Assembly: GCA_020723165.1 (NCBI GenBank)
Contig: DYJK01000016.1
Coordinates: forward strand, 1-45,732
Direction: 5' to 3'
Length of the DNA stretch: 45,732 nt
Source: Melioribacter roseus
GTDB lineage: Bacteria; Bacteroidota; Ignavibacteria; Ignavibacteriales; Melioribacteraceae
The translations under genes were made by a program, and so were the position numbers. Below the pieces are notes generated by a model. That model saw only the letters and a program-made list of their open reading frames with translations. It was not told the origin of the DNA and did not search any database. Each line of letters opens with the position of its first letter. Within the stretch, counting starts at the first letter, position 1. Shown here in pieces: positions 8,470 through 35,443 of this stretch.

Positions 8470-9807
8470 TTAGAATCTTCGCCCTTTTATTTTCCCGGAT
8501 TTCATAAATCCATCATAGTGACGCATCAATAAATGGGATTCAATTTGTTGAAGTGTATCTAATGCAACTCCAACAACTATTAGTAAACTTGTACCGCCAA
8601 AGAATGATGCAAAACTTCCGGATACTCCAAATTTCGAAATGAAAGTAGGAAGTATTGCAATTACTGCAAGGAATACAGAACCGGGTAATGTTATCTTTGT
8701 CAAAATGTTATCTATAAAATCTGCGGTTTGTTTCCCGGGGCGAATACCCGGTATAAATCCGCCTTGTTTTTTCATATTCTCTGCAACATCTTGTGGATTG
8801 AATGCAATTGCAGTATAAAAATATGTAAAGAATATAATCATGATTGCATATATAAAAGCATACGTCAACGATTGATAAGTAAAGTACCCGGAGATCGAAG
8901 CAATAAATTCATTGTTAGGGAAAAATGATAACAATGTACTTGGAATAAACATAATTGACTGCGCAAAGATTATCGGCATAACACCGGCTGTATTAACTCT
9001 TAACGGTATGTACTGTGTTACACCGCCGTAAACTTTTCTGCCGACAACTCTTTTAGCATATTGAACCGGGATTCTGCGTGTACCTTGCGTAACTAAAACT
9101 ACGCCGGCAATAATAAAAACTAATAAAACTATAATGATAATTTCAATAACCAAATTTCTTTGACCGGCAACAATCAAACGGTATTCATCGAGTATAGCGA
9201 ACGGGAAACGATCGATAATTCCAATAAAGATTATCAACGAAATACCGTTGCCAATTCCTTTTTCAGTTATCTGCTCGCCCATCCACATAATAAACATTGT
9301 ACCCGAAACCAAAAGCACGACTGTTGATATCGTCCAGCCAAAACCTCTTACTGCATCCGGTACGATAGGAAGATTGTTGTGTTGAATACTCATTAAGTGA
9401 ATTGTTACACCCCACGCCTGGAATGCAGATACAAGAACGGTACCGTATCGTGTCCACTGGTTTATTTTCTTTCTTCCTTCTTCACCTTCACGCTGCAATT
9501 TCTGAATGTAAGGAACAACAGCGCCGGCTAACTGCAATACTATTGATGCGGATATGTAAGGCATAATGCCTAACGCAAATAATGCCGCATTTCTGAATGC
9601 ACCCCCCACAAATAAATCGTACAACCCGAATAGATTATCGGAAGTGGTGTTTGTCATTGCAGAATTCAATAAGAATGAATCGATTCCGGGAAGAGTGATG
9701 TGAGAACCGATACGAACTATAATCAACAGAGCTAACGTATATAGTATCCTCTGTCTAAGTTCATGAATCTTAAAAATATTTCGGAATGTTTCTTGAAAAG
9801 TAGCCAT
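8470..9807 (-). CDS. secY: Protein translocase channel subunit SecY
   Basis: SecY is the ten-helix pore of the SecYEG translocon in the inner membrane. The 445 residues contain the expected hydrophobic segments, the plug-region GGAFRNAALFALGIMPYISA segment and the cytosolic RRIPVQYAKR loop between helices 6 and 7, where SecA and the ribosome dock. Its ATG overlaps the rplO stop by one base (TAATG), so translation is coupled. Its partner SecE is encoded at the other end of the supercluster; secG is not in the window. Confidence 0.98.
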   Translation of the reverse strand: MATFQETFRNIFKIHELRQRILYTLALLIIVRIGSHITLPGIDSFLLNSAMTNTTSDNLFGLYDLFVGGAFRNAALFALGIMPYISASIVLQLAGAVVPYIQKLQREGEEGRKKINQWTRYGTVLVSAFQAWGVTIHLMSIQHNNLPIVPDAVRGFGWTISTVVLLVSGTMFIMWMGEQITEKGIGNGISLIIFIGIIDRFPFAILDEYRLIVAGQRNLVIEIIIIVLLVFIIAGVVLVTQGTRRIPVQYAKRVVGRKVYGGVTQYIPLRVNTAGVMPIIFAQSIMFIPSTLLSFFPNNEFIASISGYFTYQSLTYAFIYAIMIIFFTYFYTAIAFNPQDVAENMKKQGGFIPGIRPGKQTADFIDNILTKITLPGSVFLAVIAILPTFISKFGVSGSFASFFGGTSLLIVVGVALDTLQQIESHLLMRHYDGFMKSGKIKGRRF

Positions 9808-10271
9808 TAAAATTTAATCTCTTTGATAGTTCCGCCGAGTGATTCAATTTTTTCTTTTGCCGATGCACTAAAAGCATGTGCTTCAACATTCAATTTCGTT
9901 TTTAATTCTCCATTACCAAGAATTTTGCAAGGTACAGAAGATTTTGAAACTGCACGATGTTTTAATAAAGTTTCAAAATTGATAACACCGTCAGTTACTT
10001 TTTTATCATCTACTAATTTTTGAAGCTTATCAACATTAACAACTTGATAGGTAACTTTGAACGGACTTTTAAAACCTCTTTTAGGAACGCGCCTTTGCAA
10101 TGGCATCTGTCCGCCTTCAAACCATGCTCTAAACTTTGCACCAGAACGTGAACGCTGTCCATTCATACCTTTTGTTGCTGTTCCGCCGTGTCCGGAACCT
10201 TCACCGCGACCAATTCTTTTTTTCTTTTTATGTGAACCCTTTGCCGGTTTCAGATTACTTAGTATATCCAT
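9807..10271 (-). CDS. rplO: 50S ribosomal protein L15
   Basis: L15 is a late-assembly protein of the large subunit. Its 154 residues start MDILSNLKPAKGSHKKKKR, with the glycine- and arginine-rich extension (GRGEGSGHGGTATKG) that penetrates 23S rRNA and a globular C-terminal half. It lies 8 bases after rpmD and overlaps secY by one base. Confidence 0.98.
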   Translation of the reverse strand: MDILSNLKPAKGSHKKKKRIGRGEGSGHGGTATKGMNGQRSRSGAKFRAWFEGGQMPLQRRVPKRGFKSPFKVTYQVVNVDKLQKLVDDKKVTDGVINFETLLKHRAVSKSSVPCKILGNGELKTKLNVEAHAFSASAKEKIESLGGTIKEIKF

Positions 10272-10279
10272 TTAGCACC

Positions 10280-10468
10280 TTATTCTTCTATTTCTTCAAC
10301 TTTAACTAGATGATTTACTTTACGAACCATCCCTCTTATCTGGGGGGTATCGTTGTGTACAACATGATAATTCGGTCTGCCGAGACCCAATGCTTTTATT
10401 GTCAGCTTCTGTCTTTCCGGTCTATCAATTACGCTTCCGGTTTGAGTTATTTTTAATTTCTTAGCCAT
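10280..10468 (-). CDS. rpmD: 50S ribosomal protein L30
   Basis: A 62-residue L30 of the short bacterial form, with the family core [19 protein letters not shown] and a [13 protein letters not shown] loop. It packs on 23S rRNA domain II. It lies between rpsE (11-base gap) and rplO (8-base gap), the standard spc-operon position. Confidence 0.97.
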
Positions 10469-10479
10469 TTAATCCTCTA

Positions 10480-10992
10480 TTACAAATTGAATAGCTCGGA
10501 TACTTTTATTCCGCGCTTTGCTGCCATAGTACGGGCATCAATAAGATTTAACAATGCATTCAATGTTGCCTTTACTTGATTATGCGGATTTGATGATCCG
10601 AGAGATTTTGTTAATACATCTTGAACACCGGCGGCTTCAAGTACAGCACGCACTCCTCCCCCGGCAATAAGGCCGGTTCCAGGGGTTGCCGGTTTTAGTA
10701 ATACTTGCCCGGCACCGAACTTGCCAATTATCGAATGCGGAATAGTACCTTTTGCAATCGTAACTCTGTAAACATTTTTCTTAGCATCATCAATACCTTT
10801 CGAAATGGCATCTGTTACTTCGTTAGCTTTACCTAATCCAACACCAACATGACCATTGCCATCGCCTACAACTACAATTGCGTTAAAGCTGAATCTTCTA
10901 CCGCCTTTAACTACTTTGGCAACTCTATTAATGTGAACAATTTTTTCTTTTAGGTTCTCTAATCCTGAAACTTTTTTGTTCTTGAAATTCAA
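10480..10992 (-). CDS. rpsE: 30S ribosomal protein S5
   Basis: S5 lines the mRNA entry channel and contributes to decoding fidelity. The 170 residues contain the double-stranded-RNA-binding-like N-domain, with [19 protein letters not shown], and the S5 C-domain with [20 protein letters not shown]. The start is TTG at 10990-10992, preceded by AAGGAG with a 6-base gap; no ATG fits. It is the only spc gene here separated from its upstream neighbour by a tRNA gene (41 bases away). Confidence 0.97.
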
Positions 10993-11033
10993 TGTTAACT
11001 CCTTGTTTCAACCATTCACTGTTTTTAATTTTT

Positions 11034-11107
11034 TGGCTGCCGGGGGAGGATTCGAACCTCCACATACGGCTCCAAAGGCCGCTGTCCTGCCATTAGACGA
11101 CCCGGCA
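11034..11107 (-). tRNA. tRNA-Gln (anticodon TTG), inside the spc operon
   Basis: A complete 74-base cloverleaf. The acceptor arms TGCCGGG and CCCGGCA pair fully, the discriminator is G, and an encoded CCA follows. The anticodon stem is GCGGC/GCCGT with loop CTTTGGA, so the anticodon is TTG. The T arm is GGAGG-TTCGAAT-CCTCC. The weak U1-A72 pair and G73 agree with known glutamine identity. It lies 17 bases after rplR and 41 before rpsE on the same strand, so it should be cut out of the spc transcript. It is the only tRNA of the five here with encoded CCA. Confidence 0.96.
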
Positions 11108-11124
11108 ATCACAATTTCAAATAC

Positions 11125-11490
11125 TTAAAATTTAAGACCGCCTTCGCGGGCACCATCGGCTACTGCTTTTATTCTGCCGTGATATGTAAATCCATTTCTA
11201 TCAAATACTACTGTTGCTATTCCTTTTTCTGATGCACGTTTTGCTACTAATTTTCCTACTAATTTACTTTTAGAAGTTTTACCTTTGCTGGTTTTTAGTT
11301 CTTCTGCCAGCTCTTTAGATTTTGTAGAAGCTTCTACTAATGTTATCCCTTTGACATCATCAATTATCTGTGCATATATATGATTTAAGCTTCTGAATAC
11401 ACTCAATCTTGGTCTTTCTGGTGTACCGGATATTTTACTTCTTACTCTAACTTTTTTACGAATTCTTTTTTTATTATCCTTCAAAAACAT
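11125..11490 (-). CDS. rplR: 50S ribosomal protein L18
   Basis: L18 binds 5S rRNA and anchors it in the central protuberance. Its 121 residues include the family segments [20 protein letters not shown] and [28 protein letters not shown]. It lies 16 bases after rplF and 17 before the tRNA-Gln gene. Confidence 0.98.
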
Positions 11491-34767: not shown

Positions 34768-34788
34768 TTTATTTTCACCATTCCGTTG

Positions 34789-34861
34789 CACGTCAGGAGG
34801 GATTCGAACCCCCAGCCTGCGGTTTTGGAGACCGCTGCTCTGCCAGTTGAGCTACTGACGT
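34789..34861 (-). tRNA. tRNA-Trp (anticodon CCA)
   Basis: A complete 73-base cloverleaf with acceptor arms ACGTCAG/CTGACGT and discriminator G. The anticodon stem GCGGT/ACCGC carries loop CTCCAAA. The T arm has the GTTCGAATC core. The 3' CCA is not encoded. It sits between rpmG and secE, a common bacterial arrangement. Confidence 0.97.
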
Positions 34862-34862
34862 A

Positions 34863-35030
34863 TTATTTAGTTTCCTTAAATATTACGTGTTTACGAGCTA
34901 CTGGATCGTACTTTTTAAATTCTACTCTATTAGGATGATTTCTTTTATTCTTCTTAGTACTATAACGGTAACCAGTTCCGGCTGTACTTTCCAATGTTAT
35001 AATCTGTCTTACATTTTTTGATTTTGCCAT
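34863..35030 (-). CDS. rpmG: 50S ribosomal protein L33, zinc-free form
   Basis: A 55-residue L33 beginning [20 protein letters not shown], with the [19 protein letters not shown] core and ending in VIFKETK. There are no CxxC pairs, so this is the C-minus form. L33 lies near the E site. AGGA is about eight bases upstream of the ATG. Its stop is only one base before tRNA-Trp, so one transcript carries both. Confidence 0.96.
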
Positions 35031-35110
35031 TTTTCATTTCCTACATAATTACATTACTAACTTTGTTCCAATTACTTTTGCGAGGGTTGCTCATTAAAAA
35101 ATATTCTAAG
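35031..35110 (-). other. Gap between tRNA-Thr and rpmG, where other bacteria carry tuf
   Basis: Eighty A+T-rich bases with no supportable gene. In many bacteria a second tuf gene follows the Tyr-Gly-Thr tRNAs and precedes tRNA-Trp-secE-nusG. Here that position is empty apart from the rpmG ribosome binding site. Confidence 0.6.
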
Positions 35111-35183
<73 letters not shown>

Positions 35184-35191
35184 GTAGAGTG

Positions 35192-35264
35192 AGCGGGAGA
35201 CGGGACTCGAACCCGCGACCAACAGCTTGGAAGGCTGTGACTCTACCAACTGAGTTACTCCCGC
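35192..35264 (-). tRNA. tRNA-Gly (anticodon TCC)
   Basis: A 73-base cloverleaf with acceptor arms GCGGGAG/CTCCCGC and discriminator T. The anticodon stem ACAGC/GCTGT carries loop CTTCCAA. The T arm GCGGG-TTCGAGT-CCCGT contains one wobble pair. CCA is not encoded. Confidence 0.97.
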
Positions 35265-35292
35265 AATTTTTACATAACATTAAGAACTCATG

Positions 35293-35376
35293 TGGGCGGC
35301 GAGGGATTCGAACCCCCAAAGGCGTTTGCCAACGGATTTACAGTCCGCCCCGGCTCTCCAACTCCGGCGTCCGCCC
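35293..35376 (-). tRNA. tRNA-Tyr (anticodon GTA) with unusual core positions
   Basis: An 84-base class II tRNA with a long variable arm (GGC-AAAC-GCC). The anticodon stem GCGGA/TCCGT carries loop CTGTAAA, and the T loop is TTCGAAT. Two oddities are seen: position 8 reads C rather than the near-universal T, and acceptor pair 7-66 is A-G instead of a Watson-Crick pair. CCA is not encoded. It is the first gene after the supercluster promoter. Confidence 0.93.
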
Positions 35377-35414: not shown

Positions 35415-35443
35415 AATATAGACGCTCCTATAAAAAAAAGCAA
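35415..35443 (-). promoter_or_regulatory. Promoter for the tRNA-rpmG-secE-nusG-ribosomal supercluster
   Basis: TTGCTT (35438-35443) and TATATT (35415-35420) are spaced by 17 bases. The -10 box extends to TATATTTG, which also fits the TAnnTTTG motif described for Bacteroidetes. The predicted start is about 30 bases before tRNA-Tyr. The rest of the 35377-35569 gap is A+T-rich and should hold the proC promoter, which I could not place. Confidence 0.7.

Follow-up and report, generated by a model that had tools for sequence, protein, structure and literature searches.

Operons in which tRNA genes are combined with protein genes of translation and export are known from Escherichia coli, such as tRNA-tufB and secG-leuU, and a tRNA in a translation operon is a known phenomenon. 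It is also established that excision of a tRNA by RNase P and 3' nucleases cuts the transcript in which it lies. Few gene strings in bacteria are as conserved as the spc operon. In the window, the whole stretch of 45,732 nt of Melioribacter roseus DNA analysed here, a tRNA-Gln(UUG) gene was located between rplR and rpsE of this operon (Table 1); this gene and its homologues at the same site are called the gap tRNA below. It shares with the E. coli examples a tRNA cut, by prediction, from a transcript common with translation and export genes, but it differs from them in splitting two ribosomal-protein genes. Among the matches listed, no paper on a tRNA within the spc operon or at the rplR-rpsE junction was found by title and abstract opening. 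The window also holds a cluster of tRNA-Tyr, tRNA-Gly, tRNA-Thr and tRNA-Trp in which, as at the gap, tRNAs adjoin a ribosomal-protein gene. This cluster is different in that a match to the promoter form of Bacteroidota (TTG, 17-21 nt, TAnnTTTG) lies just upstream of tRNA-Tyr/Gly/Thr, namely TTG-N20-TATATTTG at 35443 on the minus strand. Rfam at its gathering threshold recovered four of the five window tRNAs and missed tRNA-Tyr (35292-35376), though the latter scored 35.7 bits.

Table 1. Coordinates of the rplR-rpsE junction, its neighbours and the second tRNA cluster of the window
Feature	Position	Strand	Basis or remark
tRNA-Gln(UUG)	11034..11107	-	ARAGORN (anticodon TTG); 71-nt body 11107..11037 and encoded CCA 11036..11034
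rplR (L18), upstream neighbour of tRNA-Gln	11125..11490	-	ORF; TIGR00060 over NCBIfam cut-off
rpsE (S5), downstream neighbour, TTG start	10480..10992	-	ORF; TIGR01021 over NCBIfam cut-off
rpmD (L30), rplO (L15), secY, rest of the spc operon downstream	8470..10468	-	
Spacer, rplR stop to tRNA 5' end	11108..11124	-	17 nt
Spacer, tRNA to rpsE, predicted leader of a released rpsE message	10993..11033	-	41 nt
tRNA-Tyr/Gly/Thr - rpmG (L33) - tRNA-Trp cluster	34788-35376		rpmG by NCBIfam

As shown in Table 1, ARAGORN, Rfam, the open reading frames and NCBIfam agreed on a tRNA-Gln(TTG) between rplR and rpsE on their strand, as the first-pass annotation had proposed. The Rfam model RF00005 gave 63.8 bits over 11107..11037, and rpmD, rplO and secY exceeded the NCBIfam cut-offs of TIGR01308, TIGR01071 and TIGR00967, respectively. 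The motif AAGGAG was present at 11004..10999, ahead of the rpsE start. The statement that rplR and rpsE are normally adjacent was borne out by the relatives: the median spacing was 25 nt in the class genomes without the gap tRNA (n=30) and 148 nt in those with it (n=61). The spacing was taken from the rplR stop to the rpsE start, with some start codons misplaced and two of them inside the tRNA, and the locus L155, which is without rplR, was left out. Because of the misplaced starts, the ribosome-binding-site scores (35/61 gap genomes and 12/30 others) were set aside, and the median spacings alone were used. No direct repeats of the mobile-element kind were found around tRNA-Gln. In addition, an A+T-rich inverted repeat of 21 nt with 76% complementarity (10969-10989 and 11113-11133) flanks the gene. 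The source genome is a draft of 193 contigs with 98% completeness, and the nearest named spc loci carry the labels Ignavibacteria, Ignavibacteriales or Melioribacteraceae.

The best explanation, to which we give a probability of about 0.8, is that an ordinary, functional and apparently single-copy tRNA-Gln(UUG) moved long ago within Ignavibacteria from a place before prs into the rplR-rpsE junction, that it was later lost from the junction in some lineages which keep a prs-linked tRNA-Gln, and that it is co-transcribed with the spc genes and cut from their message.

The structure of the gap gene was compared in 16 gap homologues. The standard pairs accounted for 99.4% of the paired cells of the clover-leaf, and 11 of the 20 stem pairs changed on both sides, which was reached in 0/500 shuffles. 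Judged by this covariation, the clover-leaf of the gap tRNA is under selection. A count of the Gln tRNAs of the source genome gave the TTG anticodon once among the 39 tRNA genes found, and a tRNA-Gln(CTG) of another type elsewhere. The single copy of tRNA-Gln(UUG) is provisional, because the 39 tRNAs of the draft include no His or Ile-GAU. It might be supposed that the gap gene is a tRNA-derived pseudogene or a regulatory tRNA-like element that yields no working tRNA, given its unusual place and the gap tRNA of one genome (G013, L204:701-772), in which one anticodon change from TTG to GTG places a His anticodon on a tRNA-Gln body. However, the clover-leaf is maintained with compensatory changes and no second TTG anticodon was seen among the 39 tRNA genes of the source genome, so that this supposition is hardly credible. 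The GTG anticodon of G013 may be a sequencing error or a real change. Descent of the gap gene from the tRNA-Glu or tRNA-Gln(CTG) of its own genome was also considered and dropped, since the identities of 67.5% and 64.9% are no guide and the same type occurs in other classes.

The bacterial glutamine identity set, in the passages of PMC9976931 cited here, consists of U1-A72, G2-C71, G73, G10, U34, U35, G36, G3-C70, A37 and U38, and U1-A72 is given there as needed by tRNA-Gln; the latter pair is present in the gap type. The window tRNA has U1-A72, G2-C71, G73, G10, U34, U35 and G36, and it has C3-G70, G37 and A38 where the set lists G3-C70, A37 and U38 (PMC9976931). G37 also occurs in the other tRNA-Gln type of the class. 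The gap tRNAs of families f7 and f14 have C2-G71 and A73 in place of G2-C71 and G73. Moreover, U11-A24, U13.G22 and a variable loop of four bases (47 absent), all present in the gap type, are part of the tRNA-Glu core in the same passages; unlike that core, the gap type has G and not A at position 46 (PMC9976931). Both glnS and gatB were present in the source genome. A glnS match passed in 77/149 class genomes (42/62 gap genomes against 35/87 others, counted by eye), and the correlation of the gap tRNA with GlnRS over these 149 genomes was patchy inside families and followed no clear rule. Family f14 has the gap tRNA, yet no glnS match was obtained in its 9 genomes, and f7 has glnS only in part; therefore, the charging route may have shaped the acceptor stems of their gap tRNAs.

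The distribution of the gap tRNA was determined at two levels. A tRNA was present in the rplR-rpsE junction at 23 of 80 rpsE loci of named genomes, always tRNA-Gln(TTG), and the other 57 had no tRNA in the stretch examined. With a covariance model for the gap tRNA, 61 of 149 whole genomes of the class each had one high-scoring match (89 bits or more), and these counts are not independent of the former, as the named-genome loci and the genomes labelled G overlap in part. All 61 matches were directly upstream of rpsE and on its strand, with none elsewhere. The carriers belonged to 10 of 24 families and made up 61 of the 62 genomes of these families; in the remaining genome, G110, a contig end falls within the gap tRNA, following rplR. 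The covariance model found no gap tRNA in the other 14 families (87 genomes). Among close relatives in the class sample, the gap tRNA was present in 15/15 f1 and 5/5 f2 genomes, and in the phylum search two of 26 f1 genomes (G439 and G474) were without a high-scoring match. The first-pass annotation had seen in the encoded CCA, which among the tRNAs of the window is complete in this one only, a sign of a different origin, and hence of possible recent horizontal acquisition. Recent transfer is refuted because of the class-wide distribution, with the same site in 61/149 genomes from 10 families. Furthermore, the 71-nt body is identical in two relatives (L032 and L035), where CTG and CAA, respectively, take the place of CCA, and CCA changes 7-8 times among 51 genomes placed on a tree, which also speaks against such an acquisition. 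We regard it as extremely improbable.

Most tRNA genes of the genomes studied here do not encode CCA, which is also reported for Bacteroidetes/Chlorobi (PMC5143459). The lineages treated in that paper share with ours that individual tRNA genes encode CCA where most do not; the paper differs in that it stresses the initiator tRNA, and its main text nowhere uses the terms 'C74', 'partial' and 'operon'. The remaining four window tRNAs were without a full CCA, in agreement with the first-pass annotation, but all four encode C74, and a second full CCA was found in the source genome outside the window, in tRNA-Leu(GAG). C74 was encoded in 39/39 tRNA genes of the source genome by the ARAGORN 3' end and in 38/39 by a stem-based locator. 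It was also encoded in 127/128 other tRNAs of ten gap-bearing genomes, in 60/60 gap tRNAs, in 43/43 non-spc tRNA-Gln, and in 20/20 tRNAs (1/20 with full CCA) from one genome each of KSB1, Neomarinimicrobiota, Calditrichia and Kapaibacterium. The frequency of C in the trailers was about 10% (18/184, positions 77-80), far below the rate of C74. The observation on C74 covers the tRNAs of the source genome together with L312-L341 and L390-L449. The RNase P RNA of the source genome is of class A, and its alignment keeps the GGGU stretch; in E. coli, this stretch pairs with the tRNA 3' end. The retention of C74 may keep the pairing with RNase P RNA or may suit RNase Z. No paper on C74 retention was found by title and abstract opening among the matches listed.

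As C74 is always encoded, a full CCA needs only CA. The full CCA was present in 8/166 other tRNAs (7/128 + 1/38, the 128 being the better-scoring ones of 10 genomes), which is close to the frequency of CA in the trailers (4.5%). In the gap tRNAs it was present in 12/60, namely 8/15 in f1, 1/5 in f2, 3/11 in f7 and 0/29 in the rest; with six genomes added, the values were 10/20 in f1 and 2/6 in f2. It was absent in 7 of the 10 carrier families. G013, with the anticodon read as GTG and the 3' end CAG, is outside the 60 counted. For tRNA-Gln before prs, the full CCA was present in 4/19 genes of the gap type and 3/24 of the 72-nt type described below. The idea that CCA marks the spc site was weakened by these prs-linked genes, and CCA as a mark of separate origin was ruled out by the body without CCA, the 7-8 switches and the background rate. 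It is hard to judge whether the full CCA arises by pure chance, which fits the background and does not fit f1 (10/20), since kinship and inherited state blur the excess. From these sequence comparisons, CCA is a labile trait that occurs somewhat more often in tRNA-Gln than among the other sampled tRNAs, and it is a two-base extension of the always-encoded C74 that marks no separate origin.

Class genomes without the gap tRNA mostly have another tRNA-Gln(UUG), which is 72 nt long with the D arm GCCAAG..AAGGC. A pattern for this type matched 82/149 genomes (0/62 gap genomes and 82/87 others), among which the match in G025, with 3 mismatches, does not resemble a UUG tRNA. In these searches, the two main tRNA-Gln(UUG) types occurred together in 0/149 class genomes. 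A search of 395 genomes revealed the gap type itself in other classes of the phylum as well. There it has in common with the gap tRNA the 71-nt type, the D arm GTCTAAYGG.AGGAC, the UUG anticodon, C74 (19/19), an occasional full CCA and a same-strand protein gene downstream; however, it lies before prs, whereas the gap gene lies inside the spc operon. In the 12 other-class loci of the gap type first read, rplR and rpsE were absent from the 1.5-kb flanks. For the two main types outside spc, 42 of the 43 sampled genomes had prs (ribose-phosphate diphosphokinase) on the strand of the tRNA, 25-473 nt downstream of it. The linkage was 19/19 for the gap type in other classes, picked from the top of the phylum search, and 23/24 for the 72-nt type, sampled in 11 of the 14 families that lack the gap tRNA; the single genome without linkage had 519 nt of flank. 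The distances were counted to the start of the prs match, with small genes between left out of account, and NCBIfam names one gene of each kind. Examples of the prs-linked loci are L458-L469, L301-L311 and L352-L361.

Two genomes, G003 and G051, were left out of the 43, as they have a third tRNA-Gln type (GTGTAA) with under 500 nt of flank, in which no prs was seen. G051 carries the gap tRNA as well, and a single copy is thus not universal among carriers. Its second, divergent tRNA-Gln(TTG) at L453:232-303 lies beside a 75-nt gene called tRNA-Leu and is perhaps from a mobile element or contamination. No prs was found in the window or in the other loci examined of the source genome, where tRNA-Gln precedes rpsE. 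On this evidence, the gap gene is best described as the ordinary tRNA-Gln of the phylum in another home, and it would have moved there, because the related genes elsewhere in the phylum, as sampled, are found before prs. No second copy of the two main types was seen in the gap genomes, which suggests that their prs site was emptied. Either of the two tRNA-Gln types of the class may be the ancestral one. The separate history suspected by the first-pass annotation therefore survives in another form: the origin read from CCA fell with the relatives that have the body without CCA, and a relocation took its place, as the kin lie before prs.

To examine the gains and losses, a tree with 56 rows was made from nine proteins, ribosomal ones and secY; 45 rows were class genomes, which covered all 24 families, and 11 were outgroup loci. 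The distribution of the carriers required 4 changes on this tree, 3 of them imposed by branches whose SH-aLRT was at least 95. After removal of five outgroup or long-branch rows (L294, L080, L086, L099 and L102) before the AU test, 3 changes were needed, and a single carrier clade was rejected (AU p 6e-5). Because the ribosomal-protein trees reject one carrier clade, an ancient gain with several losses appears to be the likeliest and simplest history. The same 3-4 changes and the rejection of a single carrier clade would also agree with several independent insertions of tRNA-Gln at this junction. However, the tRNA type, junction and strand were identical in all 61 matches, no tRNA of any kind was detected at the other 57 of the 80 spc loci in the stretch examined, and losses are easier than repeated identical gains; independent insertions are thus an unlikely account.

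Consensus scans found no terminator-like or promoter-like sites on the minus strand in the rplR-rpsE gap. The tRNA lies on the strand of its neighbours with no promoter or terminator between them in these scans, which is the arrangement of a mixed tRNA-mRNA operon, and it is therefore expected that the tRNA is transcribed together with the spc genes. The Bacteroidota-type pattern had no match in the gap of the window, and it had matches in 0/60 upstream stretches of 120 nt and 0/60 downstream stretches of 110 nt of the gap genomes, which is weak evidence for promoter absence because only about 0.3 matches are expected in shuffles. The -7 motif alone was present in 4 upstream and 13 downstream stretches (of 60 each), a count without control. 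A promoter between the tRNA and rpsE had been suspected by eye in f7 and f14, and was dropped when the pattern had no match in any stretch scanned. Four loci (L055, L056, L058 and L061) have a long A+T-rich tRNA-rpsE spacer with TATATATTTG-like runs and no promoter match at the spacing tested.

In the preferred reading of a relocated tRNA-Gln, the tRNA would be transcribed as part of the spc message, with no promoter or terminator of its own visible. RNase P would cut its 5' end and 3' nucleases its 3' end. These cuts would split the message in two: an upstream part that ends shortly behind rplR, and a downstream part with rpsE, rpmD, rplO and secY that has a ribosome-binding site of its own. 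The excision may affect the L18/S5 stoichiometry, as the first-pass annotation had claimed in stronger terms. In a fold of the 161-nt junction, the minimum-energy form paired the end of rplR with the first tRNA bases (z-score -0.83), and the centroid fold kept the acceptor and T stems. The distance from the rplR stop to the tRNA was 4-54 nt in 60 gap genomes and 25 nt or less in 28 of them; it was 4-22 nt in 15/15 f1 genomes and 27-54 nt in f7, f10, f13, f14 and f19. As this spacing varies by family, any hindrance of processing by ribosomes would differ between families.

The close packing in f1 and in 28/60 genomes would agree with a regulatory device, in which tRNA maturation competes with rplR translation or determines how long the rpsE part of the message lasts, so that the supply of tRNA-Gln is tuned jointly with the expression of S5 to SecY, and CCA is favoured in some lineages by changing the 3'-end cutting. 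The conservation of the gap tRNA over 10 families, the higher frequency of the full CCA in gap than in other tRNAs (12/60 against 8/166, Fisher p 0.001, kinship ignored) and the f1 value of half the genomes would also suit such a device. However, the spacing is not kept in the five families with 27-54 nt, CCA is absent in most of the carrier families, and the conservation fits simple linkage inertia. In addition, CCA is as frequent in the prs-linked genes of both types, and is not tied to spc. This makes less likely both the regulatory device, which we consider improbable, and a stricter version of it, in which the supply of the CAA-reading tRNA is obligately coupled to the expression of S5, L30, L15 and SecY, with effects of ribosomes and CCA. 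If this obligate coupling were true, each spc transcript would end up either as an uncut rplR-rpsE message or as a mature tRNA plus two halves of the message, and ribosomes ending rplR 4-22 nt away in f1 would hinder tRNA folding or RNase P. Encoded CCA, which hinders RNase Z elsewhere, would shift the balance in some lineages. The obligate version is quite doubtful.

The gap tRNA-Gln is real, old and kept within families. The stable interruption of the spc operon in ten families by a tRNA that is probably essential is a natural experiment on whether L18 and S5 require a single unbroken message, for which the lineages without the gap tRNA serve as matched controls. Moreover, the encoded CCA in a phylum mostly without CCA is a labile trait, and no sign of foreign origin.
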